A DNA stretch of 64,000 bases, from the NCBI GenBank assembly GCA_964019695.1, contig OZ026517.1, forward strand, positions 60,043,478 to 60,107,477. Direction: 5' to 3'. Under the pieces are notes generated by a model. The model saw nothing but the letters and a program-made list of their open reading frames with translations. It was not told the DNA's origin and did no database searches. Below are positions 1 through 61,819 of this stretch, piece by piece. The first letter of the stretch is position 1. Every line of letters starts with the position of its first letter. The position numbers and the translations under genes are program-made. This DNA comes from Loripinus fragilis (Eukaryota; Mollusca; Bivalvia; Lucinida; Lucinidae).

Positions 1-1991
1 GGCATGGATAAAGAACAGCCCTGTCTAACGCCTCGTTTAATTGGGAAAGTTTCAGATATGTGATTATTTACAATGACTGAAGACGAAATGTCATTATATA
101 GAAGCTTGATCCATTTTATAAAGTTATTATTGAATCCAAACGCTGTCAAAGCATCGAACATATATGACCTAGAGACTCTGTCAAAAGCTTTTTCTTGGTC
201 CAAACAAATGAAGGAGGCTGCCAAGTTTTTCTGATCAACATAATCTACAACGTTGCGTATCAAATGAAGGTTATCAAAAATTGATCGTCCTTTTACCGAG
301 CAAGTTTGATCTATGCCAATGATTTTTGGTAACACTTTTCCAAGTCGAATTGTGATTATTTTTGAAATTATTTTATAATCAATATTTAAAAGTGAAATGG
401 GTCTATAGCATTTCATCTCATCTGACCTAGTTTCGTCTTTGCAAATCAAGGTAATATATGATAATTTCTGAGTTTCAGATAATTCTCCAGCTTCATAGGC
501 TAAATTTATAATCTTACAAAGAACATCACCAAATAAATGAAAGAATTTCAAATAGAAGGCGTTTGTTAGACCGTCACTACCAGGGGATTTATTGGGTTTC
601 ATCTCTTTAAGGGCATGCAAAATTTCATCTTTTTCTATTTTCTTTTCCAGGAAGAGATTATCGGAGTGGTCAATCTTGGGCAAATCATCAAAGAAAAGGG
701 AGTTTAAAGATGAGTCAATAGGTTCTTCACTATACAGAGTTTCATAAAAGGATCTAAAACAGGTAAGTATGTCTTTTGAGTTATTATATGTGTTTGTGTT
801 GTGTTGTATTGTTTTGACTGTTTTGTTTTTGCTTAGTGTTGCTTCTTTTTGAAAAAAATACGCGCTAGGTTTTTCATTTTCTTGTATGGATTGTGTTTTG
901 CTGCGGATCATAGAACCTTTTAAAATGTTATTTTCTATTTCTTTTACCTTAAGTTTGATGTCATTGTATATATGTAGGTCAGATGTGGATTTAAAGTCAA
1001 GTTTCGAATATTGCTTTTTCAACTTTTTTAATTCACCAAATTGTTCCTTGTTTTTAGATTTACTGTAGTCAATACAAAATGTCTTTATTTGATTCTTCAT
1101 ATGATCCCACCATTCCAAAGTTATATTCTTAGTTCTAGAAATAAATTTCCAAAATAGTTCAAAATATCTAAAGAAGTCATTATCATCCAATAATTGATCA
1201 TTAAATTTCCAATAGGATTTGCCAATATCTAAACCACAATCTGCAGCCAAGTTGACTTTTATGAAACTATGGTCCGAGCATGCACAAGGTAAGGTTTGAA
1301 AAGCAATAATAGAGTTACACATATATTTCGAAATATAGAATCTGTCAATTCTAGTACCAACAATATCATAGTTTTGTGTATCGTTTCCAGTTGCAATATT
1401 TGATCTAGTCCAAGTTACAGATTTCTTTTCAGGATTCAAATGTCGAAAACAGTCCGCCAGTCCAAATTTATCAATGATAACTTTAAAAGCTTTAGATCCA
1501 ATGGTACCCTTTTTTGAATTTCCACCAAGTTTATCCAAGTTAGGTTCTAGAATAAAGTTAAAATCACCACTAATGATAACATTTTTTGCCCCAGTTATAT
1601 GATGTGAAAAAGAGTCCAAGAATTCCAATCGTTCTGTAGTATCGCTAGGAAAATATGCATTCACAATTCTAAAGTTTTTAAACCCATCAGTGGCAAAGTC
1701 TAAACGAATTACTCTGCCATAGAAATCTGAGTGGAATTTTTCAATTTGAATGTTATCCTTAATAAGAAGAATTGCTACACCACAAGAATCATCTTTACCA
1801 AAGTTCCATATGATTTTATTTTCCAGTTCTAAAGTTTTTTCAATAGATTTTGCTAAACGTAGGTTATCGACAAAAGTTTCTTGAATCAATAGAATATCAA
1901 TCTTGTTCTGGTCTATAAACTGTTTTATCAATCGGTGTTTATAGTTGGATCTAAATCCGTTTATATTAATGCTTGAGATGTTCAAATCCAT
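1..1991 (-). CDS. LINE ORF2 (endonuclease-reverse transcriptase), partial
   Basis: The ATG lies at 1991-1989, inside the 10-nt overlap ATGGATTTGA with the stop of ORFm. The frame is open to the window edge for 663 codons plus two bases. APE-type endonuclease motifs are readable: SININGFR, QET, GDFN, DRFY and SDH. Reverse transcriptase motifs follow: YRPISLLNIDYK, the motif A segment LDQEKAFD, and motif B RQGCSLSMP, where the window ends before the expected YADD. The codon number up to motif B equals that of copy B, so there is no net indel over 663 residues. By eye the protein is roughly 80-90 percent identical to copy B. The frame has no stops, so the copy may be young, but its 3' half cannot be seen. 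Confidence 0.92.
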   Translation of the reverse strand, partial: MDLNISSININGFRSNYKHRLIKQFIDQNKIDILLIQETFVDNLRLAKSIEKTLELENKIIWNFGKDDSCGVAILLIKDNIQIEKFHSDFYGRVIRLDFATDGFKNFRIVNAYFPSDTTERLEFLDSFSHHITGAKNVIISGDFNFILEPNLDKLGGNSKKGTIGSKAFKVIIDKFGLADCFRHLNPEKKSVTWTRSNIATGNDTQNYDIVGTRIDRFYISKYMCNSIIAFQTLPCACSDHSFIKVNLAADCGLDIGKSYWKFNDQLLDDNDFFRYFELFWKFISRTKNITLEWWDHMKNQIKTFCIDYSKSKNKEQFGELKKLKKQYSKLDFKSTSDLHIYNDIKLKVKEIENNILKGSMIRSKTQSIQENEKPSAYFFQKEATLSKNKTVKTIQHNTNTYNNSKDILTCFRSFYETLYSEEPIDSSLNSLFFDDLPKIDHSDNLFLEKKIEKDEILHALKEMKPNKSPGSDGLTNAFYLKFFHLFGDVLCKIINLAYEAGELSETQKLSYITLICKDETRSDEMKCYRPISLLNIDYKIISKIITIRLGKVLPKIIGIDQTCSVKGRSIFDNLHLIRNVVDYVDQKNLAASFICLDQEKAFDRVSRSYMFDALTAFGFNNNFIKWIKLLYNDISSSVIVNNHISETFPIKRGVRQGCSLSM

Positions 1992-3946
1992 TGAATTGAT
2001 TGAGTTTGATTGCCAAACATATACACAGGACTAAGTTTCAGACTACAGTGAAAATAGGTGATATAATTGCATAATATAAGCAGTGATAGTAGCGTATTGT
2101 TAAAAGGTTCAAAAGTAAGGTATATCGTTGGATAATAATAATAACAATAATTATAATAATAATAGTAATAATAATAGTAGTAATAATAATAGCCATCATT
2201 TTTATGCTTGTTGAGTATATGTGACAGTAGTAATTGCTGTAGTAGTAGTAGTGATAAACGTTGCGAAAAATGTATTTGTTGTTGTTGTAGTAGTAGTAGT
2301 AGTTGTTGTGGTTGTAACGAAATGTTTGGTGATAATAGCAGTGATGGTCGTGGTTGGGAAGGTATTATAAGTGGTAATAGCAATAATGTATGTGAGAATG
2401 ATAGTGTTGGGTATTTCATTTCTCTATCAAAATACTTTGGATTCAGATTGGGTTCTACAAAATGTGAGATCCGATCTGGGTCCAAACTATTTGCAATTAT
2501 TGCTAAGCTATAAAATATTTGCATCACTAATAGTGGTATATGGAAAAGTAGTAGTAATAGTGATGATTGTGGCAAGTACTCATATTTATATTTAGGATTC
2601 AAGAGTTTTGATGCACAAGGTTTAAGATGATGATGATGATAATGATGATGATGATGATGATGATGATTTTCAAATATATACATGTATACATATATACAAT
2701 ATGGGGGTTGGGTATTATTGGATGATATAGGTAAGTATTTCTTGAAAACAGCCAAGAGCCAAAGGAAGTCAAAGGTAGGGTAAATATGGTATAATGTATC
2801 ACAGATATTAATTGTTATTACCGTACAGATATGCACAATAAAAGACGAGTAGTTTGGAGTCTGTACTAACCATAGGGAAATATAAAACCAGAAATTCAAT
2901 CTCAGATTCATCACAAAACATATAATCATGAGGATGTATAGGCTATAGCTTTTAATTTGCGAAATAAAGCAAAATAGCCATAATGCAAATACAGCAGGAA
3001 TAAGGTGTAATGTATTCAACCAAGGTATTTGTACATGTAAAATACTCAGCAGGAATAAGGTAAGTAATAACCAAACGATAAGAGATTTTTCCAATACTGT
3101 ATGTCGTTGTAATTTATCGTCTGCTATAGGAGCGAATTGAGACGATTTTATATACCAAAAATACACCCAGGTAAACCAGTAAATCGATAAAACAGCGTAG
3201 CGCTTGATCAAACATATAGAGAGTGCAGGATTCGAAATATACATGCAGTGTAAAAATAGTGTATGTAAAACAGAGTGTAGCGTGGTCGCGTAGTTACCAT
3301 ATACATGTATTTGTGATTTATCTAAGGTGGCCTGATGAATAGCGTTAATAGTGTACATGTACGAATAGGTCAGACGATTTGAAAACAAGTTGGAACGCTT
3401 TTGCCAAAGCATACAGGCCTCAAAACACATAGATTTGAATGTTGAGGAAAGAGAGGGTTTGATTATTTGGTGGAGGCAGGCTAAAATATAGTGAGATGTG
3501 TTATTGGAACATTTGTATTCATAGTAGGGGTTGGCTGGCCAGTGGAGTTTTGGGGGTATGGGTAAAAGGAAAAATATATATAGGAGTTGATGGTAAAACG
3601 GGAACATTTGGGACGTTATTATTTTAAAAAGCGGGAGCATTAGGGGCTGTATATTGCTATACGAATATATAGGGATAAGTGGAAAAGAGGTAAGGGTATA
3701 ATAAGGAATATAAGTATTTGCTGTGTCAAAAGGTAGATGAGGGGCAATGGGAGTATATGTATTTAAGGGGCAAGGTATAACCTGTAAACATATATAAACA
3801 AACCAGGCAATTATATAGAAGATAATTGCCTTAAAGGTGAAATCGCATAGCATTCTCATAGTCCATACACGTTTCCGGGTCCCACATACCAAGCAAAGAT
3901 TGACATATCCATAGTCCAAAGAGTCATTGTCGATTAACATAGCCAT
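1982..3946 (-). CDS. LINE middle open frame (ORFm), hydrophobic 654-aa product, function unknown
   Basis: The ATG at 3946 lies 8 nt after the ORF1 stop. The frame stays open for 654 codons and its TGA overlaps the ORF2 start. I do not recognise the product. It is rich in Leu, Ile, Tyr and aromatic residues, with several segments that look membrane-spanning, a His run around residues 430-445, and a Tyr run near residue 590. Both runs come from trinucleotide microsatellites. The central third (about residues 200-330) matches copy B best, for example YTINAIHQATLDKS and QIPWLN. Against a real gene: the sense strand is pyrimidine-rich, so stop codons are rare, and a palindromic repeat (2431-2491) lies inside the frame. 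For it: copy B keeps the same start, end and length although the sequences differ strongly. Confidence 0.5.
   Translation of the reverse strand: MAMLIDNDSLDYGYVNLCLVCGTRKRVWTMRMLCDFTFKAIIFYIIAWFVYICLQVIPCPLNTYTPIAPHLPFDTANTYIPYYTLTSFPLIPIYSYSNIQPLMLPLFKIITSQMFPFYHQLLYIFFLLPIPPKLHWPANPYYEYKCSNNTSHYILACLHQIIKPSLSSTFKSMCFEACMLWQKRSNLFSNRLTYSYMYTINAIHQATLDKSQIHVYGNYATTLHSVLHTLFLHCMYISNPALSICLIKRYAVLSIYWFTWVYFWYIKSSQFAPIADDKLQRHTVLEKSLIVWLLLTLFLLSILHVQIPWLNTLHLIPAVFALWLFCFISQIKSYSLYILMIICFVMNLRLNFWFYISLWLVQTPNYSSFIVHICTVITINICDTLYHIYPTFDFLWLLAVFKKYLPISSNNTQPPYCIYVYMYIFENHHHHHHHHYHHHHLKPCASKLLNPKYKYEYLPQSSLLLLLFHIPLLVMQIFYSLAIIANSLDPDRISHFVEPNLNPKYFDREMKYPTLSFSHTLLLLPLIIPSQPRPSLLLSPNISLQPQQLLLLLQQQQIHFSQRLSLLLLQQLLLSHILNKHKNDGYYYYYYYYYYYYYNYCYYYYPTIYLTFEPFNNTLLSLLILCNYITYFHCSLKLSPVYMFGNQTQSIQWI
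2132..2192. repeat. (TAA)n-type microsatellite inside ORFm of copy A
   Basis: Interrupted ATA/TAA triplet run. On the minus strand it is read as TAT codons and gives the Tyr-rich stretch of the ORFm product. Its period of three does not break the frame. Confidence 0.85.
2431..2491. repeat. Imperfect palindrome (hairpin repeat) in copy A
   Basis: Two 28-nt arms (2431-2458 and 2464-2491) are imperfect inverted copies around a 5-nt centre. The arm core TTTGGATTCAGATTGGG resembles the palindromes at 10906-10958, 11192-11244 and 6727-6789, which suggests one palindromic repeat family. It lies inside ORFm without adding a stop. Confidence 0.6.
2626..2668. repeat. (GAT)n microsatellite inside ORFm of copy A
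   Basis: Run of GAT/TGA triplets. In the ORFm frame on the minus strand it reads as CAT codons and yields a His tract. Copy B has a similar tract at the matching place (11323-11371). Confidence 0.85.
3302..3362 (-). other. 61-nt block conserved between the two LINE copies (copy A)
   Basis: This block matches 12020-12080 of copy B at 59 of 61 positions, while the DNA around it is much more diverged. It begins and ends with TACATGTA palindromes. It lies in ORFm and encodes the YTINAIHQATLDKS segment, but third codon positions are conserved too. A nucleotide-level role (RNA structure or cis element) is therefore possible. Confidence 0.7.
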
Positions 3947-3954
3947 TTGATTAC

Positions 3955-5046
3955 TTACTTACTACTCATCAAATCATCAACACCAAGGTTATCATATGGG
4001 TTTGACAACTCAATGGAGGGGGGCTCCTCTGTCCAATCGACCGCTTTTGCTGTTTTATTAGGTGTTAAGTAGTCGTCGTCGGCAGACGAATCCCTACACC
4101 TTTTTGAGCGTTTTTCATTCATCTCAACATCTTCATCATTTTCCTCATCATCTGTAGTGTCAAACATGGACTTCGGCCGTTGCCCGGACCCGGCTTCGTC
4201 AGCCTCCATGCCAACAGACACATCAGCCCCACCCGCCGACACAGCCGTCGCATCATTTGATGCGGCAACCCTATCAGCAGGCACGGCTTCAGCATCCGCT
4301 GAGGAAGGCGCTGGGTCTGGGTCCTTAGATCCAGTCCCAGCACCAACCTGAGGCACAGGTGCCTTAGGCGGGGCCCCAGCACCAGCAGAAGTCCTGTTAT
4401 TCTTGAATAGGCCTGCAAAGGATCTATTATTTGTAGGGCATCTAGACCGTATGTGACCTACTTCTTGACATTTTAAGCAGTAAGGGGGGCGTCCCTGCAT
4501 TGTGACCAGGCAACATTGGCCAGATGGAAACTTGATCAAGTGGGGGATTCTCTGTTTCATTACCTCATCAACTTTCAGAGTTACCTGCCTAACACCATTT
4601 AGCACTGTAACTTTCTCATGAGATGCTCTCATCATACCTATGTCTAGAATCTGACCATACAAAGAAAATACTGTACGTAGTATACTATGATCATAATACA
4701 GAGGGAGCCAATGCACCCTCAAAGTGACCACCTGCTCAGACATCTTCATAACATTCAGAGAGGCTTTGCCAAAACGGAGCTGTTGTATGTCCATTAATTC
4801 CTGGACAGCTTCCTCATCTTTCATTTGCAATGAGTACGAAGAATCAGAATCACTGACCTTGAATAATCCTTCGATCTTCTCTCCATCAATTCCCGCATCT
4901 TCTAGTACTGACAAAAGTTCCCCATAGCTAGGTAGTTGTCTCCTATTCCCTGGATCCGCCGGTATCAACTTCACCGTCTGGTCTAACTTAGTGTTGTTAA
5001 TATGGATGGTTTCTGAACCCTCAAAAATAAACACTGGATCTGCCAT
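3955..5046 (-). CDS. LINE ORF1 protein (zinc-knuckle RNA-binding), copy A
   Basis: The first ATG gives a 363-aa protein; an upstream in-frame TTG was not used. The N-terminal 180 residues look like RNA-binding folds, with a segment VTLRVHWLPLYYD that has an RRM-like strand pattern. One CCHC zinc knuckle follows: C190-x2-C193-x4-H198-x4-C203, ending GHIRSRC. The C-terminal part is Ala/Pro/Asp/Glu-rich and low in complexity, with a basic KRSKRCRD patch (a possible nuclear signal) and the motif PNKTAKA shared with copy B. In LINEs such ORF1 proteins coat the element RNA and act as chaperones. Identity to copy B ORF1 is only about 40-50 percent by eye. The stop is 8 nt before the ORFm start. Confidence 0.88.
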   Translation of the reverse strand: MADPVFIFEGSETIHINNTKLDQTVKLIPADPGNRRQLPSYGELLSVLEDAGIDGEKIEGLFKVSDSDSSYSLQMKDEEAVQELMDIQQLRFGKASLNVMKMSEQVVTLRVHWLPLYYDHSILRTVFSLYGQILDIGMMRASHEKVTVLNGVRQVTLKVDEVMKQRIPHLIKFPSGQCCLVTMQGRPPYCLKCQEVGHIRSRCPTNNRSFAGLFKNNRTSAGAGAPPKAPVPQVGAGTGSKDPDPAPSSADAEAVPADRVAASNDATAVSAGGADVSVGMEADEAGSGQRPKSMFDTTDDEENDEDVEMNEKRSKRCRDSSADDDYLTPNKTAKAVDWTEEPPSIELSNPYDNLGVDDLMSSK

Positions 5047-5065
5047 ATTGGTAGATAAAACCAAG

Positions 5066-5107
5066 AGGACCGCGTGTTGTCACGTTTCCTCTGTACCAGG
5101 TAAGTAT
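5066..5107 (-). pseudogene. U1 snRNA gene 5' remnant, interrupted by LINE copy A
   Basis: Positions 5107-5084 are U1 nt 1-24 without change. From there to about 5066 the match continues with several one-base losses and changes: GTGACAACACGCGGTCCTC in place of the normal GTGATCAACAAGGCGG and what follows. The promoter and spacer to the right (5108-5573) look normal. The rest of this gene lies beyond copy A, outside the window. Confidence 0.85.
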
Positions 5108-5573
5108 GCTTGGACAGCCAAGGCCGTGCCTCTTAAAGCACAAGGATCTCAATTCAAAGTGGTGTGGCGCCACCAGCTCCCAGCTCACGCTTCCACACGG
5201 TTCCCTCGCGCAGCTGCACGCCATGCACGTGCTCCACGCCATGCACGTGCTCCACGAGCCTCTCCTCCAAGCAGCACGAACGAAATCCCACCTGCAGCTC
5301 GCACAATATAAAGGAGGCGCACGCTCAGCCTGAAAAACAAGGACATAAGCGATTAAGCACACAGGCAACGTCGCACATACGTTTCTGACATTCAACGTTT
5401 ACATTGAGAAAGGGCGACAACTCTCCCTTTCAGCAGCTGCAACTGCAAATGCTACCTACTAGCCCACATTCAACCTGCCTGTCGTGGCGTGATCTGGTCT
5501 GCGCGAAAGCACAGGGGTTTTCCGGGATTTCTCGGGATTTTGGAAGGGTTTCTGTTCTGCAATGTCTTTGTTT
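5108..5573. repeat. U1 array spacer between the two LINE-interrupted genes
   Basis: The 466-bp spacer has the same length as in the main array and shows the same elements: the E-box pair, AATATAAAGG, and the GAAAGGG/CCCTTTC hairpin. It shows that copies A and B occupy neighbouring units of the same array. Confidence 0.93.
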
Positions 5574-5703
5574 CAGGGGTTAGCGCGTACGCAGACCCCC
5601 ACACTTATAAATTGCGTACCCGAGTTGTCCACATTTGGGACAATCGCAGCCGTCAGCCCAACCGAAGTGCAATGGAAGGGCCTCCTGCTGGAGGAACCGC
5701 CTT
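5574..5703 (-). pseudogene. U1 snRNA gene 3' part (nt 35-164), interrupted by LINE copy B
   Basis: These 130 bases equal nt 35-164 of the array U1: the 3' side of stem-loop I, stem-loops II-IV and the Sm-like site. They follow directly after the A-rich 3' tail of copy B. The matching 5' part is at 13731-13773. Confidence 0.95.
5695..5703 (-). repeat. Target-site duplication of LINE copy B, 3' side
   Basis: AAGGCGGTT on the U1 sense strand (U1 nt 35-43). It is repeated exactly at 13731-13739. Both 5' junctions also keep a CCTC after it, so the true duplication may be 13 bp with one extra T in copy B. Confidence 0.88.
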
Positions 5704-5743
5704 TTGTTTTTCATAAATTTTAATTAAGTATTTACAATAAAAA

Positions 5744-5769
5744 CCGGTGGGGTGTAAGGCCCCACACGG
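5744..5769 (-). other. Hairpin near the 3' end of LINE copy B
   Basis: CCG plus GTGGGG (5744-5752) pairs with CCCCAC plus CGG (5760-5769), with a single bulged base and a 7-nt loop. It lies about 40 nt from the element 3' end and is strikingly GC-rich in an AT-rich UTR, so it is a candidate recognition structure for target-primed reverse transcription. Confidence 0.6.
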
Positions 5770-6192
5770 CCGGTACCTTTGTCATGCATATACAATAATT
5801 GAAACCCTTAAAAAGACCTATGAAAAAAACTTTATACATCGAAATATGAAAGATAAAAATGTTATAGAGACGTATTTGATAAAGACCTAGATAGATAATT
5901 ATTTGAAATATCTTGCAAGGAAAGAAAAGGAAAGGATAGATATGACTTAGCTACAAAATGAATCCCTTAATATGCACTATGGCGGCATATATTCAACAAT
6001 AGATAAATTGCATTGCGTTTTCACAAACTTAAACCTTAAAAGGTACCGTGTGTAAGTATTTGAGATTACTTGACCACAGACTAAATATTTTATACATTTG
6101 TATTTATGTTTTGCCAGTCTATTAGGTAAAAAAAGAGAAATCTTAGGAAAAATGTTCTGCCTTTCCATGTGTCCCCGGTCATGACACGAGCG

Positions 6193-6211
6193 TTGTGCAC
6201 CTCGTGCACAA
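6193..6211. repeat. Perfect short inverted repeat in the copy B 3' UTR
   Basis: TTGTGCAC (6193-6200) and GTGCACAA (6204-6211) form an 8-bp stem with a CTC loop. A role is not known. Confidence 0.5.
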
Positions 6212-6726
6212 GGCTAGAGTCAGTGACCAAGTTCACATTTCAACCTGGGTCAGCCTTTAACATGGGACATATGTAGGTAATTCAATTCAATAAGGTATAA
6301 GCATAATATATACAATGGCGGACATTGATCACAGAGGGCAAATGGGAGAGTTGGACTTGGGTCGCTCACTATTCCTACTGGGGGAAAGACAAGAACCACT
6401 CACACATCCAAGAGACGAGGGCTCGGGTTCCCTCCCCACTTGGGCGTGGGAGTATTAAAAGGATATCCATAATTTATAGCCTAAATGTGTTGTGCAGGTA
6501 TAATTCAAAATGATCTTAGTCTGTAGTCAAGTCAGAGCTCTACATATATAGTTAGTACAATACAATGAATATTCACAAATGAAATGACAACTCTTTACTG
6601 TTCAGACAGCAACTGCAGTCTGAAAATAGAAAGACTAGTTTAAAACATGTACAAGGTTATTTTCCATAATATAACAAAATGACAATATAAATTGCAAGTA
6701 CCAGAGGAGATAATGGCTACATCATC

Positions 6727-6789
6727 CTGTAGTTTGGACTGAGATGAGTTCTGACATATAGTCAGGTCTGACCTCTGTCCAAAATATAG
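6727..6789. repeat. Imperfect palindrome in the copy B 3' UTR
   Basis: 29-nt arms at 6727-6755 and 6761-6789 around a 5-nt centre. The core TTTGGACTGAGATGAG resembles the other palindromes in both LINE copies. Confidence 0.55.
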
Positions 6790-7181
6790 TAATTCTCATA
6801 AGTCGATGATTTAAGTCACGATTTAAATTAATCTGTGTTAACATATGCCTATAATCTTTTCTTTGGAAACAAAAACAAACAGTGCAGATCCAGATTAGCC
6901 ACTACATAACGCAGCATCCAATCAGGCTCTCCACTGTTTGTTTATATAATGTTATATTAATTTTGGATGAAAAGAAAAATCTAAGAATGGGTAATAGACA
7001 ATCTATTTGGCTTGAAGGGGTAAAAAAGAATAACAAATATTAAAATGAACAATAAACGAAATAAAAGGTATATTTTGCTTTGTCTAATAGGCTGTGGACG
7101 AAAGAAAACAGTGCAAATCAGGAGGAGACGTTAGCTAGGCCCACATCTCATCTGGTCTGTACTGCTTGCAATATTTATAAG

Positions 7182-10100
7182 TTATTGATTTTCTATCATT
7201 GTTTTTTGGAAATATTTTCTTATATCCAAAATGGAGTCAAAACTTATTGTATCAGAAATAATTTCAATGCTGCAAAATCCTGAAGAAATCCAAGTATAAA
7301 AAAAATCGTCCGCCATCAATCTTTCCTTATCAACCAGAATTCTACATTTGATTTTATTTAAAAATTTTGAAACCACACCAAAACTAGTTATTGTTTTTAG
7401 TTCGTGTTTAGCTAAATTTCTATTTGTCCAAATGATATGTCTGGACTCTGTAAGAAGAATTAGTGCTACTTGTTTTTTGAATTTTGGAAGTTGAGGCAAT
7501 ACAAAATATCTAAAAGTTTTTTCTGAAAGTGAAATTTTGTTTTGGCTAAGCTTCTTTAACATAAACAGTACAATTTTATTTAGGGGTAAGAAGACATTAC
7601 ATTCCAAAAACAGGTGAGTAACAGTTTCTATTTTATCACATAAGGGGCAAGTCTTAATTTTTGAAATATGTTTATAGTAAAGATAATAATTAACATATAT
7701 AACATCATGAGTTAATTTCCAAAAAGTATTACGAACATCAGGGTCAATATATGGCAAACTAATATTTTTCCAAATAGGCTTAAAATCTATATATGGGCAC
7801 AATTTTTCTATTTTTGGCTGTATGCAAACGTCTTGTAATAATGTTTTGTATATGTGTTTCTTGTGAAATGAGTTAAAATCAATGTCTTCATTCGTATGTG
7901 TGAAATTGTCAAAAATTGATAAACATGTTTTGTAAAATATAGGAATGTATTCACTATGGGGAACGCTGTTACTAGCAAAAGCTGGGTTATACTTTCTAAG
8001 TTGCAAACCTATCCAATATTTAGCAAAGAAGGTCCAGTTAGCGTTATGGTTATTTATTAGCTTCTGCAAATGATTTAAGTATATCGAATGGCACTTAAGT
8101 TTCACACATGGAACATTCAATCCTCCTTGATTAAAATCTAGATATAAGGTTTTTCTGGCCACAGGTTCAAATGTAGAGCTCCAAATAAATCTAAAGAATC
8201 GTCTTTCAAAAAGTGTGAGATAGTGAGAAGGTATTGGGTTACAAGTAGCATAATACAATATTTTACTAAGACACAGAGAATTCAAAACTGTTGATTTCCC
8301 TTTAAAAGAAAGTTTCCTTGAAGTCCAAAGGTTAAGGGTTTTATCAATTTTTACATATATTTTCGACCATATATCATCATTACTGAAACCTGATCCAAAA
8401 AAGTAACCAAGAATTTTATGATGGTCAATCCAACTGATGCCAAAAGGATGATCAGATCTAGTTTTCCATTTACCAAGGTACATTCCTTTCGATTTTTCAT
8501 AATTTATTTTTGCTCCAGATACCTGTCCAAAAAGTTTTACCCAATAGAAATATTTTCGAATGGATGAATCAGATGTCAAAAGTGCTGTACTATCATCAGC
8601 ATATAAACTAAGTTTCACTTCAGAACTAGAACCGGGTAATTTAATTCCTTTGATATCGTCCAAGTTTCTGATTTTGTGTGCAAAAGGTTCAAAACATATA
8701 ACATACAGGGGCATTGATAAGGAGCAGCCCTGTCTAACACCTCGTTTGATGGGAAATGCATCAGATATATGATTGTTTACAATGACAGAAGATGATATGT
8801 CATTATAAAGAAGCTTGATCCATTTTAAGAAGTTTTCATTGAAGCCAAATGCTGTCAAAGTATCGAGCATATAAGATCTAGACACTCTATCAAAAGCTTT
8901 TTCTTGATCTAAGCATATGAAAGAGGCTCCCAAGTTTTTCTGATCTACATAATCCATTACATTGCGTATTAAATGAAGATTGTCAAAAATCGAGCGACCT
9001 TTAACAGAACAAGTTTGATCAATGCCAATGATTTTGGGTAAAACATTTCCAAGTCGAATTGTGATAACTTTCGAAATAATCTTATAGTCAATATTTAGAA
9101 GTGAAATAGGTCTATAACATTTCATTTCATTAGCTCTAGTTTCATCTTTGCAAATCAGTGTTATGTATGATTGCTTCTGAGTTTCAGATAGTTCACCATT
9201 TTCGTATGCCAAGTTAATTACTTCACATAAAACGTCACCAAACAAATGAAAGAGTTTCAAATAGAAGGCGTTTGTTAAACCATCACAACCGGGAGATTTA
9301 TTGGGTTTCATTTCTTTCAGGGCGTGCAAAATTTCATCTTTATCAATTTTCTTTTCCAGGAGGACATTATCGGAAGGGTCAATTTGAGGCAGACCATCAA
9401 AGAAAAGGGAGTTTAATGATGAATCTACAGGTTCTTCATTATATAGGTTTTGGTAAAAGGACCCAAAAGAGGTAAGTATATCTTTAGAATTATTGTATGT
9501 GTTGTTGTTGTGTTGTATTGTTGTTATTGTTTTTTGTTTGCTTTGTGATGCTTCTTTTTGAAAAAAATATGTTGTTGGGTTTTCATTGCTTTCAATTGTT
9601 TGTGTCTTACTGCGGATAATTGTGCCTTTTAGTATGTTGTTTTCGATGTCTTTGACTTTTAATTTGATATCATTGTAAGTATGTAGGTCAGATTCATTTT
9701 GTAAGTTAATGTTTGAATATTGTTTCTTTAAATGTTTTAATTCACCAAATTGCTTTTTGTTTTTAGATTTACTGTAGTCTATACAAAACATTTTTATTTG
9801 ATTTTTAACATCATCCCACCATTCTAAAGTTACATTTTTATCTCGGGTCAATAATTTCCAAAAAAGCTCAAAAGATCTTACAAAGTTACAGTCATCTAAT
9901 AATTGATCATTGAATTTCCAATATGATTTGCCAATATCAATTCCACTATTAGCTGCCAAGGTTATTTGAATAAAGCTATGATCTGAACATGCACAAGGTA
10001 AGGTCTCAAAAGATGTAATTGAATTGCAAATAAGTTTGGAAATATAGAATCTATCAATTCTTGTGCCAATTTGGTCATAGTTTGATGAATCATTCCCAGT

Positions 10101-10700
10101 TGCAACATTCGATCTTGTCCAAGTTACATTTTTCTGATTAGGATGCAAATGTCGAAAACAGTCAACTAAGCCAAAATGTTCGACAAGAGCTTTGAAAGAT
10201 TTAGAGCCAATAGTACCTTTTTTAGGATTGCCACCAAGTTTATCTAAGTTTGGATCCATTATGAAATTGAAATCACCACCAATGATTACATTTTTTGCTC
10301 CACTTAAATGTTGCGAAAAAGAGCTTAAAAATTCCAATCTTTCAGCAGATTCGCTGGGACAGTATGTGTTAACAATTCTAAAGTTTTCATACCCATCAGT
10401 GGCAAAGTCTAGACGAATTACTCTGCCATAAAAATCCGAGTGAAATTTTTCAATCTTTATGTTGTCCCTAATAAGAAGTATTGCTACACCACATGAATCA
10501 GCTTTACCAAAGTTCCATATGATTTTATTTTCCAAATCTAAAGTTTGTTCAATAGATTTTGCCAAACATAAATTATCAACAAAAGTTTCTTGAAGTAATA
10601 AAATATCAATCTTGTTCTGATCTATAAACTGTTTTATTAATTGGTGTTTATATTTGGATCTAAACCCATTAATATTAATGCTCGAAATGTTCAAATCCAT
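7182..10700 (-). CDS. LINE ORF2: APE endonuclease, reverse transcriptase, C-terminal zinc motif (1172 aa)
   Basis: Residues 1-245 form an apurinic-type endonuclease: SININGFR (7-14), QET (37-39), GDFN (142-145), DRFY (216-219), SDH (239-241). It would nick the U1 target. The reverse transcriptase follows, about residues 450-770: YRPISLLNIDYK (529-540), motif A LDQEKAFD (597-604), motif B RQGCSLSMP (656-664), catalytic YADD (700-703), motif D SGAKINYEKSKG (728-739), and a motif E LGY (764-766). A C-terminal zinc motif of the zf-RVT kind is C1018-x2-C1021-x7-H1029-x4-C1034. All key residues are present and the length is normal for the family. The ATG sits inside the ORFm stop overlap ATGGATTTGA, which suggests termination-reinitiation as reported for some other LINEs. 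Confidence 0.95.
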   Translation of the reverse strand: MDLNISSININGFRSKYKHQLIKQFIDQNKIDILLLQETFVDNLCLAKSIEQTLDLENKIIWNFGKADSCGVAILLIRDNIKIEKFHSDFYGRVIRLDFATDGYENFRIVNTYCPSESAERLEFLSSFSQHLSGAKNVIIGGDFNFIMDPNLDKLGGNPKKGTIGSKSFKALVEHFGLVDCFRHLHPNQKNVTWTRSNVATGNDSSNYDQIGTRIDRFYISKLICNSITSFETLPCACSDHSFIQITLAANSGIDIGKSYWKFNDQLLDDCNFVRSFELFWKLLTRDKNVTLEWWDDVKNQIKMFCIDYSKSKNKKQFGELKHLKKQYSNINLQNESDLHTYNDIKLKVKDIENNILKGTIIRSKTQTIESNENPTTYFFQKEASQSKQKTITTIQHNNNTYNNSKDILTSFGSFYQNLYNEEPVDSSLNSLFFDGLPQIDPSDNVLLEKKIDKDEILHALKEMKPNKSPGCDGLTNAFYLKLFHLFGDVLCEVINLAYENGELSETQKQSYITLICKDETRANEMKCYRPISLLNIDYKIISKVITIRLGNVLPKIIGIDQTCSVKGRSIFDNLHLIRNVMDYVDQKNLGASFICLDQEKAFDRVSRSYMLDTLTAFGFNENFLKWIKLLYNDISSSVIVNNHISDAFPIKRGVRQGCSLSMPLYVICFEPFAHKIRNLDDIKGIKLPGSSSEVKLSLYADDSTALLTSDSSIRKYFYWVKLFGQVSGAKINYEKSKGMYLGKWKTRSDHPFGISWIDHHKILGYFFGSGFSNDDIWSKIYVKIDKTLNLWTSRKLSFKGKSTVLNSLCLSKILYYATCNPIPSHYLTLFERRFFRFIWSSTFEPVARKTLYLDFNQGGLNVPCVKLKCHSIYLNHLQKLINNHNANWTFFAKYWIGLQLRKYNPAFASNSVPHSEYIPIFYKTCLSIFDNFTHTNEDIDFNSFHKKHIYKTLLQDVCIQPKIEKLCPYIDFKPIWKNISLPYIDPDVRNTFWKLTHDVIYVNYYLYYKHISKIKTCPLCDKIETVTHLFLECNVFLPLNKIVLFMLKKLSQNKISLSEKTFRYFVLPQLPKFKKQVALILLTESRHIIWTNRNLAKHELKTITSFGVVSKFLNKIKCRILVDKERLMADDFFYTWISSGFCSIEIISDTISFDSILDIRKYFQKTMIENQ

Positions 10701-10987
10701 TTTATAATTTGAGAATATATGCCAAGCATGTATAAAAGACTAAGATTCAAACTACAGTACCAAATAGAGTGACCATAAGTAATATTGTAGTAGAATATGG
10801 GTAATGATAGTGGTGTATGGTAGCAATGTTTGAGTATAAGGCATATTAATAAATAATAATAATAATAATAATAATAGTAATAGTGACTAAAAATTTGCAC
10901 AAATTCTAAAGACCCTGAGCAGGCCCAACATTTAGTTAGGCCTGATCTTAGTCTAAAGTATTTGTAATGGAAGCCAATTGTCTGTAC

Positions 10988-11028
<41 letters not shown>

Positions 11029-12652
11029 TGGTATTATAAGTATTTATTGTGTACAGTGAGTAATTAAAGCTATAATTGGTAGTAATGTATGTGGTTGTGT
11101 AGTGGATAATGATAGCACATAATAATAATAATAATAATAATAATAAAATTAACAATAATGATAATAATAAAATTTGAAAACTACAAGAAACTTTTGGATC
11201 CTGATCAGGTCCGACTTTAAGTCGAGCCTGATCATGATCCAAAACTTTTGCAAAGTAGTCATATATTCCGAACGGGTATGTTATTGGTGGATATATGGTA
11301 TTTTGGGGATGTGACCTGCTGGATAGATGATGATGATGATTGTAATAGTGATGATGAGAATGGTGATGATCAGCATATATATACATGTATATACAATATA
11401 GGATTGTTTTCCAGATAAGTGAGTATGTGTCAACAAATGCTCGAAGAGCAGAAAAGCAGAATATATAACAAGCTAAAGGGGTGCAAATATTTAGGTAAAT
11501 ATGGTATAAAGTATTACAGGTTTTCAGTCTTATCTCTGTACAGATATGCAAAGCCAGACGATCTAAAGTTAGAGTCTGTACTGAACAGAAGGTGTATCTG
11601 AAAAGAATAATGCATCCTAGTTTCATCTCAATATATGAAACAATAGAGAGTATTCGGCAATTACTTATAATTTGCCAAAAACAACAGAAGAACGATGGTA
11701 CAAAAATAGTATAAATAAGGTACAGGAAGTTCAACCAAGGTATTTGCATATTAAAAATACTCAGCAGGAATAAGGTAAAGGACAGCCAAGCGACAATTGA
11801 TTTTTCCAATACTTTATACTGCAAAAAATATTCGTCTGCTTTCAGTGTAATTTGAGGTAGTTTTATAACGCTATAAATCATACAGGTAAATCGAAAAATC
11901 AATACAGTATAGAACATGGCCAGGCAGATAGTGTGCGTAGGGTTGAAAAGATACATGAGGTGTAAAAATAAAACAGGTAAATGTAAACTCAGGTATAGCG
12001 TGGTTGCATAGTAACTAAGTACATGTATTGGTGATTTATCTAAGGTGGCCTGATGAATAGCGTTAATCGTGTACATGTACATGTATATCAATCTATTTGA
12101 TATCTTTACAAGAAGATTATTGCTAATTACACTGTATACAAAACGTCTAAAGTTTAGAGAGGATTCGAATATGGGTATATGTATCGATAGAAGGCCAATA
12201 ATAAAGTATGTAAGATGCAACAAAGAAATATAGCAATAAGAGGGGTGAGAGGGGTTGTACGTTAGAGTGTGGATAAAAGCTGTAGTTAATAATGGTGTAG
12301 TATGTGAGAATAAAGGGTATAACGGGAACATTGGGGGCACTGTATGGATCGGGAACATTAGGGGCATAGCATTACTATAGGAAATTATGGGATGGTAATT
12401 TATGAGGAAATGGCTATAGTGTATGGTGTTGGGTCTGGTATGGCCATATAAAAATAGGGAGAAAATCAAAACAAAAAGCACATATGGTACATGTATATAA
12501 ATAGTGTAAGACATAACACAACAGGCAATCAAAATGAAAGGGGTGATTGCCTTAGAATTTAGTCCATTAATCAGTCTCGTTATCGGTATGCATATCGGGG
12601 TCTCATGTTCCAAACAAGGATTGACATGTCCGTAATCTAGTGTGTAGTCCAT
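10691..12652 (-). CDS. LINE middle open frame (ORFm), hydrophobic 653-aa product, function unknown
   Basis: The ATG at 12652 lies 11 nt after the ORF1 stop. The frame runs 653 codons and ends in the 10-nt overlap with ORF2. The start (LDYGHVNPCL), centre (YTINAIHQATLDKS, LEKS, TLFLLSI, QIPWLN, TLYHIY) and end (CSLNLS, YMLG, IIKWI) all align with copy A in the same order. The product has many hydrophobic stretches that could span membranes, a His-rich tract near residue 430, and long Leu and Tyr runs from triplet microsatellites in its last third. Two palindromic repeats (10906-10958, 11192-11244) are inside the frame. No known domain was recognised. A pyrimidine-rich non-coding spacer that happens to be open remains possible. 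Confidence 0.5.
10850..10884. repeat. (TAA)n microsatellite in ORFm of copy B
   Basis: ATA/TAA triplet run, read as TAT (Tyr) codons on the minus strand. Confidence 0.85.
10906..10958. repeat. Imperfect palindrome in copy B
   Basis: 24-nt arms (10906-10929, 10935-10958) around a 5-nt centre, with about 17 of 24 positions able to pair. The GAGCAGGCCCAAC core resembles the better conserved palindrome at 11192-11244. Confidence 0.5.
10988..11029. repeat. (TAA)n microsatellite in ORFm of copy B
   Basis: Nearly pure ATA/TAA triplet run of about 14 units; it gives the longest Tyr tract in the ORFm product. Confidence 0.9.
11119..11172. repeat. (TAA)n microsatellite in ORFm of copy B
   Basis: Interrupted triplet run. 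It is in another register, so the minus-strand frame reads mostly TTA (Leu) and ATT (Ile) codons. Confidence 0.85.
11192..11244. repeat. Near-perfect palindrome in copy B
   Basis: 25-nt arms at 11192-11216 and 11220-11244 differ from perfect pairing at three positions, with a 3-nt loop. The core is TTTTGGATCCTGATCAGG. It looks like a widespread kind of palindromic interspersed repeat of marine invertebrates, recalled from memory and not checked. Confidence 0.7.
11323..11371. repeat. (GAT)n microsatellite in ORFm of copy B
   Basis: GAT/GATG triplet run with interruptions. It encodes the His-rich tract on the minus strand and sits at the place of the copy A tract at 2626-2668. Confidence 0.8.
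12020..12080 (-). other. 61-nt block conserved between the two LINE copies (copy B)
   Basis: Counterpart of 3302-3362, with only two differences. The right end is the perfect palindrome GTACATGTAC. Confidence 0.7.
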
Positions 12653-12663
12653 TTTGCAAGCGT

Positions 12664-13671
12664 TTATTGTTCATCCTGTTCATCCTGATTATCTCTGTCA
12701 CTTGGACTATATTCTCCAGGCGCTATACCAAGAAAATTCGTGCTCAAGGAGATGGGTCTCTGAGCCAAAGACTGCGCCTTGGCAGTCTTGTTTGGCTTGA
12801 CGAAACCGTCATCGCCAGGCTCAGAGTCCCTTCCCCTTTTGCAACTACCACTAGTCTCTGACATGTCAGTGTCTGTCTGCTGCTGCTGCGACCCAAGGCC
12901 AACAACGCCACCACTCCCAGAGCCTGCAGCCGCAGGCACTGGCGTGCTGTCTGGGTCCGAAATATCAGTCCCAGGCTGCACGTCAGGCTGAGAGGGTGGC
13001 ATATCAGGCAGGGTCACAGCATCAGCAGTAGCCGTATTTGACGATCTAACTGCAGCAGCGTAGTTCCTTCCTGGGCATCTTGATCTGATGTGTCCTACTG
13101 TAGAACATCTTAAGCAGTAAGGCTTCCGGCCAGGCACAGTCAGCAGCACTGACTGGCCAGACCTAAAGTTGATGAGGTGGGGAAGCGATTGCTTTCCAAG
13201 CTCATCACATTTAAGTCTGACTTCTCTAGTTCCGTTGTATGTTGAGAGCTTTGCATGTTCAGTTTTAAGCATTTTAATGTCAATGACCTCTCCATATAAA
13301 TTCAGCATTTCTTGGATAATAGAGTTATCAAAATACATTGGCAACCAATGTATACGCAATGTAATTATTTGCTCAGACATTTGCATTACATCACAGATAG
13401 TGTCTCCACATTTGATTTGCTGGAGTGACTTGAGTTTCTCTGCAGCGTCTTCAAAATTAAGCAATACTGAGTACGCATTTTCAAAGGCACTAACCTTGTA
13501 TATGCCACCAATGTCGTTCATCTCTATACCAGCCTTCTCTAAACCCAATAACAGATCACCATAGCTGACATTCGCTCTAGCCACCGTTGGAACCAGGCGC
13601 ATAGTCTTCTCCATCCTGTTGACATTGATAAACCTCGTCTCAGCTCCTTTGAAATCAATAACAGCACTCAT
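12664..13671 (-). CDS. LINE ORF1 protein (zinc-knuckle RNA-binding), copy B
   Basis: A 335-aa protein from the first ATG, 59 nt inside the element. Residues 1-180 resemble two RRM-like units; ITLRIHWLPMYFD (102-114) matches the same segment in copy A. One CCHC zinc knuckle is C186-x2-C189-x4-H194-x4-C199 (GHIRSRC). The C-terminal tail is Pro/Ser/Gly/Asp-rich, with a basic CKRGRDS patch and PNKTAKA shared with copy A. The likely role is binding and chaperoning of the element RNA in a retrotransposition particle. It is followed 11 nt later by ORFm. Confidence 0.9.
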   Translation of the reverse strand: MSAVIDFKGAETRFINVNRMEKTMRLVPTVARANVSYGDLLLGLEKAGIEMNDIGGIYKVSAFENAYSVLLNFEDAAEKLKSLQQIKCGDTICDVMQMSEQIITLRIHWLPMYFDNSIIQEMLNLYGEVIDIKMLKTEHAKLSTYNGTREVRLKCDELGKQSLPHLINFRSGQSVLLTVPGRKPYCLRCSTVGHIRSRCPGRNYAAAVRSSNTATADAVTLPDMPPSQPDVQPGTDISDPDSTPVPAAAGSGSGGVVGLGSQQQQTDTDMSETSGSCKRGRDSEPGDDGFVKPNKTAKAQSLAQRPISLSTNFLGIAPGEYSPSDRDNQDEQDEQ

Positions 13672-13730
13672 CTTTGATATTAAGATACGACTTTATAGTC
13701 GAGAAAATACCGTGACAAAAATACTGAGGA
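13672..13730 (-). other. 5' leader of LINE copy B
   Basis: Only 59 nt separate the U1 junction from the ORF1 ATG, and about 19 nt in copy A. This is too short for the usual internal LINE promoter, so transcription from the U1 promoter upstream is the simplest reading. Confidence 0.75.
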
Positions 13731-13739
13731 AACCGCCTT
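13731..13739 (-). repeat. Target-site duplication of LINE copy B, 5' side
   Basis: Exact copy of 5695-5703 (U1 nt 35-43, AAGGCGGTT). Confidence 0.88.
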
Positions 13740-13773
13740 GTTGATCACGGTTTCCTCTGTACCAGGTAAGTAT
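13731..13773 (-). pseudogene. U1 snRNA gene 5' part (nt 1-43), interrupted by LINE copy B
   Basis: Positions 13773 down to 13731 are U1 nt 1-43, unchanged, directly upstream of the LINE 5' end. The normal U1 promoter spacer lies to the right (13774-14239). Joined to the LINE this would give a chimeric RNA that begins with the 5'-splice-site pairing sequence of U1. Confidence 0.94.
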
Positions 13774-14239: not shown

Positions 14240-14403
14240 CAGGGGTTAGCGCGTACGCAGACCCCCACACTTATAAATTGCGTACCCGAGTTGTCCACAT
14301 TTGGGACAATCGCAGCCGTCAGCCCAACCGAAGTGCAATGGAAGGGCCTCCTGCTGGAGGAACCGCCTTGTTGATCACGGTTTCCTCTGTACCAGGTAAG
14401 TAT
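14240..14403 (-). ncRNA. U1: U1 snRNA, copy 1 (reference copy)
   Basis: The U1 RNA of the spliceosome; it pairs with 5' splice sites through nt 3-10. The sequence is 164 nt, the same as vertebrate U1. Nt 1-11 are ATACTTACCTG. Stem-loop I: nt 17-26 pair with 39-47, loop GATCAACAAGG. Stem-loop II carries the U1A-type loop ATTGCACTTC (65-74). Stem-loop III: TTGTCC (95-100) pairs with GGACAA (108-113). An Sm-like stretch AATTTATAAG (125-134) stands where vertebrates have AATTTGTGG. Stem-loop IV has GCG-TACG-CGC (146-155), a UNCG tetraloop like UUCG in vertebrates, closed by GGGG/CCCC. The loop I sequence differs by a C from the usual GATCAxGAAG bound by U1-70K. Confidence 0.97.
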
Positions 14404-58505: not shown

Positions 58506-58705
58506 NNNNNNNNNNNNNNNNNNNNNNNNNNNNNNNNNNNNNNNNNNNNNNNNNNNNNNNNNNNNNNNNNNNNNNNNNNNNNNNNNNNNNNNNNNNNNNN
58601 NNNNNNNNNNNNNNNNNNNNNNNNNNNNNNNNNNNNNNNNNNNNNNNNNNNNNNNNNNNNNNNNNNNNNNNNNNNNNNNNNNNNNNNNNNNNNNNNNNNN
58701 NNNNN
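58506..58705. other. Assembly gap (200 N)
   Basis: Exactly 200 N, probably a fixed-size scaffold gap. The sequence to the right shares nothing with the U1 unit, so how much of the array is missing and the true distance are unknown. Confidence 0.99.
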
Positions 58706-60507: not shown

Positions 60508-61819
60508 ATGAATTTACCAAAAGAGCTAATGTCAATGGGAGAGGCACTTGGTTATGAATGTGATACATAACGGCTTTTGTTAAAGATCAGCAAGCTCAAC
60601 AAAGGAATGAGAGAATTGCAGAAACACAAAAAGAGAAAGAAGAACGCGAGTATCAACTTGAAAAAGAGAAAGCAGAACTTGAAAATAAGGTAAAATTAGA
60701 AACAGCCCAACTTGAAAAAGAGAAAAAGCAGAACTTGAAAATAGGGTAAAGTTAGAAACGGCTTGACTTGAAAAAGAGAAGGATGAGGCTTTACTAGAAG
60801 TAGAAAGACAAAAGGCAGAGAATGAGATAAAATTGAAACATGTAGAACATACTCATGCATCGGAACTTCTAGACCTTAAATTAAAAGGTGGGGTAGGTGT
60901 AGTAGAGAAAAGCGTACAAAAGCCTAAAGGACCTAAGATTCCACCATTTGAGGAAAGTAAAGATGAGATGGATAGTTATCTCCATCGTTTTGAACGTTAT
61001 GCACTGGCCAAAACTTGGAATAATGATCTATGGGCCACACATTTAAGTGCCCTTCTAAAAGGTAAAACGTTAGACGTATATGCGCTATTACCATCTGATC
61101 AAGCTCTGGACTATGATGTACTGAAAATGGCACAGCTTAAAAGGTATGAATTAACAGAAGATGGCTTTAAAAGAAAGTTTCAGTCTTGTAGGCCAGAATT
61201 AGGAGAAACATTTTGTCAGTTCTCAGTAAGAATGTCAAGTTATTTGACAAAATGGATAGATATGGCAAAAACTCCCAAAACGTAGGAAGGTGTGTTTGAT
61301 TTGATGATGAGGGATCAATTATTACATATTTGCAATAGAGATCTGGCACTGTTTCTTAAGGAACGTACTCCTATATCTTTACCACTGATGGCTACAATTG
61401 CTGATCAGTATAAGGAAGCTAGACTGACTAGTGCATTGAATTTAACTTTTCCTCAGGGTCTTGATAAGAAGAATTCTAGACACAAGTCTCCTAATGAAAG
61501 AGTGGATACAGGTAAGACGTTCAATTCTAAATTACACAAGAGCGAACGTCGTTTTTTCAAATGAGATAGTCCAGCACATATTGAAGTGAATTGTCCTCTG
61601 AGAAGAAACAAGGTAGGAAATGTGGCTTCTAATACAAGGAAAGGGTCTAACAGTCTGATATGTGGTAGCTCCAGGAGTTTATCTCCTTCTTCAAGAGTAT
61701 GGTTCAGTAATACAGAGTATGACAGATCTAGAAATAGGGTAAGAAATGACAATAGGGACAAAGACCAAATATCTGATGAATTTGCAAATTGTGGTGCATG
61801 TATTTTCATTCCATGGTAG
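60508..61819 (+). pseudogene. Gag pseudogene of a Ty3/gypsy-type element
   Basis: From an ATG at 60508 the frame soon breaks near 60568. A Lys/Glu-rich coiled-coil stretch follows (about 60590-60830) with a repeated EKEKAELEN-like segment, the second copy of which is frameshifted. From 60833 one long frame encodes a capsid-like region (PPFEESKDEMDSYLHRFERY ... CRPELGETFCQFSVRM ... FLKERTP). It is interrupted by TAG at 61283, TGA at 61562 and TAG at 61817. The TGA hits a zinc-knuckle cysteine position before DSPAH, and another knuckle cysteine is also changed. A Gag protein would form the particle shell and bind element RNA; this copy cannot. Confidence 0.75.

Follow-up and report, generated by a model that had tools for sequence, protein, structure and literature searches.

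A family of LINE retrotransposons inserted at one site of tandem U1 snRNA genes in the bivalve Loripinus fragilis

The tandem U1 snRNA genes of Loripinus fragilis carry a family of APE-type LINEs that is very likely specific for this array class of U1 genes, and a U1-specific LINE family is well supported by the insertion junctions. The window analysed is a stretch of 64,000 nucleotides (C4:60043478-60107477, contig OZ026517.1) from an assembly of 1.99 Gb in 685 contigs. Rfam locates 72 U1 genes or gene parts in the window, all on the minus strand and most of them in 630-bp tandem units. The tandem array occupies positions 14240–58505 on the minus strand, and every 630-bp unit of it includes a U1 snRNA gene of a variant type (RF00003, 71 of the 72 window hits). 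A run of 200 N bases (58506–58705) closes the array in the window, so that the array length is uncertain. Tandem U1 genes of an embryonic type are known from other animals. A 172-codon open frame at 60767–61285 on the plus strand appears to resemble a gag fragment of an LTR element.

Insertion site and genomic distribution

LINE copy B (5702–13730, minus strand) splits a U1 gene. The 5' part, U1 nt 1–43, is an exact match at 13731–13773 and the 3' part, U1 nt 37–164, is located at 5574–5701, both on the minus strand. The target sequence AAGGCGGTT (U1 nt 35–43) was read on the minus strand at both ends of the LINE, upstream at 13731–13739 and downstream at 5695–5703, which confirms the sequence-only reading that copy B resides inside a U1 gene between exact duplicates of nt 35–43. 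The first two A's of the downstream duplicate possibly belong to the LINE tail. U1 thus resumes at either 5703 (nt 35) or 5701 (nt 37), and the duplication comprises 7 bp (nt 37–43) if these two A's are assigned to the LINE and 9 bp if they are not.

Copy A (1–5083, minus strand) extends beyond the window to C4:60041438, where its 3' end joins the same U1 site. Ahead of it on the minus strand are the exact U1 nt 1–24 (5084–5107) and the spacer and promoter of its U1 gene (5108–5573; 466 bp, 100% identical to that of an intact unit). The approximately 20 nt that follow the exact prefix are a degenerate form of U1 nt 25–47. The earlier claim that the 5' junctions of the two copies are in the same place therefore holds for the region but not to the base, as the exact prefix of copy A is only 24 nt long. 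Both copies lie on the minus strand and are co-oriented with U1, as had been proposed. Copy A terminates in an internal A-rich stretch, ~0.9 kb before the position of the copy B tail, at the same U1 base; this early end at the usual base offers a natural way to weigh tail against nick in the choice of target.

The window together with C4:59963478-60137477 contains eleven U1 units that carry a LINE, named A to K; units C to K are just left of the window, and all eleven LINEs are in the U1 orientation. The 3' ends of three further copies were read on contig C568, and copy L, in another stretch, supplied a twelfth 5' junction. All 14 of the 3' junctions read (A to K and the three C568 copies) continue as AAGGCGGTTCC, that is, from U1 nt 35 on. 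The junction base is U1 nt 37, or nt 35 if two A's are counted as target, and the coincidence of 14 junctions at a single position, out of the 630 bp that a unit offers, is not attributable to chance. Twelve of these copies finish in the tail TTATGAAAAACAAAA(n). The tails of copies A and K are truncated and non-canonical, copy K ending just before the tail; both still join U1 at the usual base.

At the 5' end, an exact U1 prefix of 22–43 nt is present in 12 of the 12 junctions read. The prefix of copies B and F comprises U1 nt 1–43, hence the 7–9 bp duplication, and in the other copies the exact match to U1 is lost at nt 22–28. In copies A and E/H/I the sequence after the prefix is recognizable as drifted U1 nt 25–47, which we read as U1 sequence that the element RNA may have carried. 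The 5' junction of the LINE is variable and the 3' junction is fixed.

A genome search with copy B ORF2 returned 41 rows; 39 of 14,435 first-look candidates were scored, so the counts are lower bounds. The 17 rows of at least 81% identity, which correspond to 14 elements, all map to C4:59.95–60.06 M (14 rows) or C568 (three rows). The sequence-only reading had suggested aligning the junctions of such copies to U1, and for 13 of the 14 elements in this lower-bound search at least one junction was read and proved to be in U1; the one left unplaced is C4:59951444-59953930. The remaining rows include sixteen at 43–65% identity on C17:64.46–64.69 M, six dispersed rows at 31% identity, and two degraded matches at C4:59.89 M (C4:59889432-59891261). 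No U1 string was found in the one 3' flank read of the six from the dispersed 31% family, and a search of viral contigs found no relative.

Among the 42 U1 matches listed for the whole genome, ten fall outside the array. The first 60 nt are uninterrupted in nine of them, these being the nine that were read. These nine genes belong to another sequence class, with GGAGATACC...GGTTCTCC versus GAGGAAACC...GGTTCCTC in the array, such that both sides of stem I are changed. Beside the nine no LINE was found, short repeat matches aside. The LINE specificity is demonstrated for array-class U1 genes only.

U2-inserted relatives and a likely change of target

The region C17:64.46–64.70 M is a U2 snRNA gene array with 26 U2 matches among those listed, eight of them full (186–190 bits) and 18 reduced (127–136 bits). 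After joining two row pairs, the 16 ORF2 rows of this region correspond to 14 elements. In 14 of 14, a reduced U2 match on the element's own strand is located past ORF2, at a distance of 896–921 bp in the 63% identity family (nine elements) and 1421–1429 bp in the 43% identity family (five elements). For four of the reduced U2 matches, no ORF2 is among the rows listed. The two 3' junctions read consist of GAAAAACAAAA(n) followed directly by GTATCTG, and the two 5' junctions read are after U2 nt 28 and nt 22. A relative of 57% identity with the same tail is inserted in U2 in the 5.3-kb record JAHXIV010000038.1, which is filed under the MAG of a gammaproteobacterial Taylorina symbiont and is presumably host DNA, so that this GTDB genome is apparently contaminated by the animal host. 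Another, smaller cluster of U2 genes at C18:8266607-8281567 contains six full-length to reduced U2 matches (64.8–139.6 bits); the matches listed include no ORF2 of the LINE family there, and another element may be inserted in this cluster.

In an ORF2 tree of 42 rows, rooted at the midpoint, the five U1 rows group together with support of 100/100. They are joined by P0007 and then by P0008 and P0009, proteins without target assignment. The sister group (99/99) contains the Taylorina U2 element. The 63% element of C17 falls outside this split, the joining branch having support of 81/62, and the 43% element is farther out. Because the U1 elements are nested among U2-specific ones, the least change is a U2-specific ancestor followed by a switch to U1, and the direction of the target switch is likely U2 to U1. 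The branch on which the switch would be placed hinges on the targets of P0007 to P0009. P0007 may reside in U2 as well, since a single contig of 113,115 bases lists P0007, P0014 and P0018, the latter two of which group with U2 elements.

The endonucleases exhibit 13 fixed differences between U1 and U2-side proteins, which are given little weight here since the target is known for only two of the five U2-side proteins. The 3' tail of copy B (5702–5821, minus strand), which comprises a GC hairpin, a second hairpin and a GAAAAACAAAA end, is common to the U2 families. The last 120 nt were aligned for 12 elements, nine from U1 and three from U2, leaving aside G, I, L049 and, for their truncated tails, A and K. 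The alignment reveals long invariant blocks, so the RNA end is alike in both target groups. The consensus fold of the tail shows two-sided change in two of 19 pairs and a covariation term of 0.04; a tail RNA structure is thus unsupported by covariation but is supported by sequence conservation.

Insertion might instead be guided by the chromatin or structure of snRNA genes, or by an A/G junction, with U1 being merely where copies survive. The U1 and U2 sites do both contain GATCAA within a few bases of the junction, on its 5' side, and they lie at a similar distance from +1; in addition, selection favors survivors in multicopy genes. However, the sorting is clean: all 13 placed elements of the 81% group are in U1 and all 14 elements of the 63% and 43% groups are in U2. 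Moreover, copies A and K use the usual base despite their aberrant tails, an observation that favors the nick over annealing of the tail. We consider this explanation improbable and favor specificity for the U1 sequence itself.

Divergence of the copies and their reading frames

The ORF1 sequences of the 11 copies fall into seven lineages (A; B; C and K; D and G; E, H and I; F; J) that are at most 51.9% identical, and synonymous change between lineages is mostly saturated. For copies A and B, the 40–50 percent identity estimated by eye is matched by a measured 43.0%. Comparison of ORF2 from A, B, D, E, F and G yields identities of 80.9–88.3% outside the pair D-G, and a dN/dS of 0.08–0.11 in 14 of the 15 pairs, the near-identical D-G having 0.22. 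ORF2 is therefore under purifying selection. The U1 sequence flanking the LINE copies is 98–100% identical, and the 466 bp upstream of U1 equal those of the intact unit in six of the 11 LINE-bearing units and are 83.0–98.1% identical in the others.

That the copies all stem from one old U1 insertion, multiplied by unequal crossing-over and followed by drift, is highly improbable. Some array duplication is likely, as indicated by the near-identical pairs D-G (ORF2 dS of 0.013), C-K (ORF1 dS of 0.087) and H-I (ORF1 dS of 0.024); these pairs may be array duplications, so the copies are not all independent, and the multiplied insertion is retained for them. For the seven lineages it is rejected. 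Their ORF1 synonymous change is mostly saturated, yet ORF2 retains a dN/dS of ~0.1 and the frames are open, whereas copies drifting in place would lose both, and the lineages diverged while the flanking U1 remained 98–100% identical. ORF1 identity of at most 52% between lineages combined with purifying selection on ORF2 indicates at least seven insertions, in line with the initial view that the differences between copies are too large for a single insertion multiplied with the array. The older divergence of ORF1 beside a younger ORF2 suggests exchange between lineages. Misjoining of LINE contigs into U1 repeats is the least credible account even though tandem arrays assemble badly and the window contains an N run, given that 14 copies whose bodies differ share a single junction base, and given the target duplication of copy B, the matching copies on C568, the separate record in which a U2 relative has the same tail, and the near-identical ORF2 proteins from ENA contigs in the protein collection.

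Copy B encodes three frames on the minus strand. ORF1 (12664–13671, 335 aa) is modelled, with support from the alignment, as tandem RRM-like folds within residues 15–206, mostly at pLDDT 84–92, followed by a CCHC knuckle. The best Foldseek match is NONO (E of 7e-7) with low TM-scores of 0.2–0.3; HuR scores 0.29/0.49. ORF2 (7182–10700, 1172 aa) comprises an APE-type endonuclease (Exo_endo_phos, E of 1.5e-8), a reverse transcriptase (RVT_1, E of 1.3e-31) and zf-RVT by Pfam, and its residues 3–869 match L1 ORF2p in the PDB with an E value of 3e-69. An ORF that joins an APE-like endonuclease to a reverse transcriptase, together with the A-rich tail and the lack of an LTR, characterizes an APE-type non-LTR retrotransposon. 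The frames of copy A, also on the minus strand, are ORF1 (3955–5046, 363 aa), the middle ORF (1982–3946, 654 aa) and the first 663 codons of ORF2 (1–1991), which remain open to the window edge. Copy J (C4:59968327-59973299, 4.97 kb) is a half-LINE with ORF1 (344 aa) and without ORF2, inserted at the same U1 site, and the start of copy L resembles that of copy J.

The middle ORF of copy B (10691–12652, minus strand, 653 aa) has no known family or confident fold. A single open middle ORF of 455–849 codons (stop to stop) is present in eight of the 11 copies A to K; it is broken in H and I and absent from J. These eight copies, picked for openness, have no stops in frame, compared with shuffle means of 25.6–49.4 and a minimum of 15, and their other two forward frames hold 24–51 stops. 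In seven of the eight, the middle ORF stop overlaps the ORF2 start as ATGGATTTGA. The dN/dS in frame is 0.34–0.68 (14 of 15 pairs where defined) and 0.50–0.84 and 0.68–1.11 in the shifted frames; for the pairs B-C and B-F, a shifted frame does as well as the true one or better. The frame is kept open and the protein is weakly constrained. The protein contains 5–11 hydrophobic stretches. No Pfam family was found for copies A and B at E up to 1, and modelling gave no confident fold (AF2 pLDDT of 34.9 from six sequences). A U2 element also possesses a middle ORF, of at least 865 codons with 48-residue repeats. In the plain fit to these data the middle ORF may encode a fast-evolving membrane-like protein; in the boldest, it could serve as a bridge by which ribosomes pass from ORF1 to ORF2. 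Palindromic GATC-rich stretches of ~50–100 bp, read as LDPDQARQNV, recur in the middle ORF (10900–11280). Short dispersed repeats in the vicinity of other U1 genes (stretches L001, L043 and L045) match them. In the U2 element (stretch L048, 1100–2450, minus strand) the GATC-rich stretches form 144-bp tandem repeats.

Expression, integration and related transposons

In 11 of 12 U1 copies, the first AUG after U1 +1 is that of ORF1, at +62 to +103; copy F, with five ATGs upstream of ORF1, is the exception. In the two U2 copies read, the first AUG opens ORF1 at +85 and +39. The proximity of the ORF1 AUG to U1 +1 leaves no room for a 5' promoter of its own, and the element probably borrows the U1 promoter. 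U1 nt 12–25 can form a stem-loop at the joint RNA 5' end in all eight copies folded. Shuffles of equal or lower energy number 0–11 of 1000 in seven of the eight copies and 102 in copy C, and the number of pairs does not stand out for A (492), J (314) and F (148), again per 1000 shuffles. A conserved 5' hairpin is only suggestive, as part of its 3' arm is simply inherited U1 sequence.

In the mechanism that we envisage, the mRNA would start at the U1 promoter, with a leader of U1 stem-loop I and a few LINE bases, and ORF2 would be reached by stop and restart through the middle ORF. The ORF2 endonuclease would nick the U1 antisense strand at nt 36/37, and the A-rich RNA tail would be copied from the nick by target-primed reverse transcription. 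The 5' end would be closed either through a second nick after nt 43, as in B and F with their 7–9 bp duplication, or through U1 homology in the RNA. The U1 specificity itself would, from the tree, derive from a U2-specific ancestor. The fuller picture of a promoterless U1-specific LINE that combines a captured stem-loop I leader (hairpin kept, sequence drifting), a bridge ORF of 1.3–2.5 kb that serves by being open rather than by encoding a conserved protein, and a U2-to-U1 switch with the same 3' tail is tentative, and we judge it somewhat doubtful. Whether the element depends on a Pol II snRNA promoter, and why its middle ORF is open but drifting, are separate testable questions on LINE expression. 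The proposed mode resembles that of R2, which targets the 28S rRNA (PMC5035012), in the borrowed target promoter, precise 3' end and variable 5' end, but R2 has a different endonuclease, one ORF and an rRNA target.

After the C17 elements, U2 sequence starts again near nt 37 in an approximate numbering. Tx1 is a plausible clade label for the window family; a relative named Transposon TX1 (P0079, 32%) forms a long branch in the ORF2 tree. An account of 2015 names Keno and Utopia (U2), Dada-U1 and Dada-U6 as the snRNA-gene-specific transposons (PMC4640811). A U1-specific LINE is not described in the titles listed on such transposons, among which coverage after 2015 is scant, and would add a target to them. 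Keno is a U2-specific APE-type LINE of frogs, fish, lancelet and hydra (PMC4640811). Like the window family, Keno combines an APE endonuclease and reverse transcriptase with insertion inside an snRNA gene and a fixed 3' end; compared by description only, the window family differs in its U1 rather than U2 target and its long middle ORF. The C17 families, which have the U2 target of Keno that the window family lacks, may be Keno members. Utopia is a U2-specific LINE with a restriction-like endonuclease; in Phytophthora its 3' flank begins at U2 nt 39 (PMC4640811). Utopia shares with the window family the snRNA gene target, the precise 3' and variable 5' boundaries and array-like insertion, but the window family targets another snRNA gene and has an APE-like domain at the ORF2 N-terminus instead of a restriction-like one. 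The presence in one genome of U1 and U2 sister families with the same 3' tail makes a change of LINE target testable with two endonucleases and two short DNA sites.

Dada-U1 is a DNA transposon of the DDE type that occupies the U1 genes of zebrafish (PMC3706591). It has the U1 target in common with the window family and differs in its DDE transposase, 6–8 bp target site duplication, other U1 site (GCGAAT/CTGCGAAT) and lack of a reverse transcriptase. An additional insertion of 4.9 kb (C4:59982363-59987274) is located at U1 nt 110–113 of the unit that holds LINE H. It has the inverted ends TAGTGTAGGCC...GGCCTACACTA and no ORF of 150 codons, and may be a DNA transposon for which U1 is a target as well.
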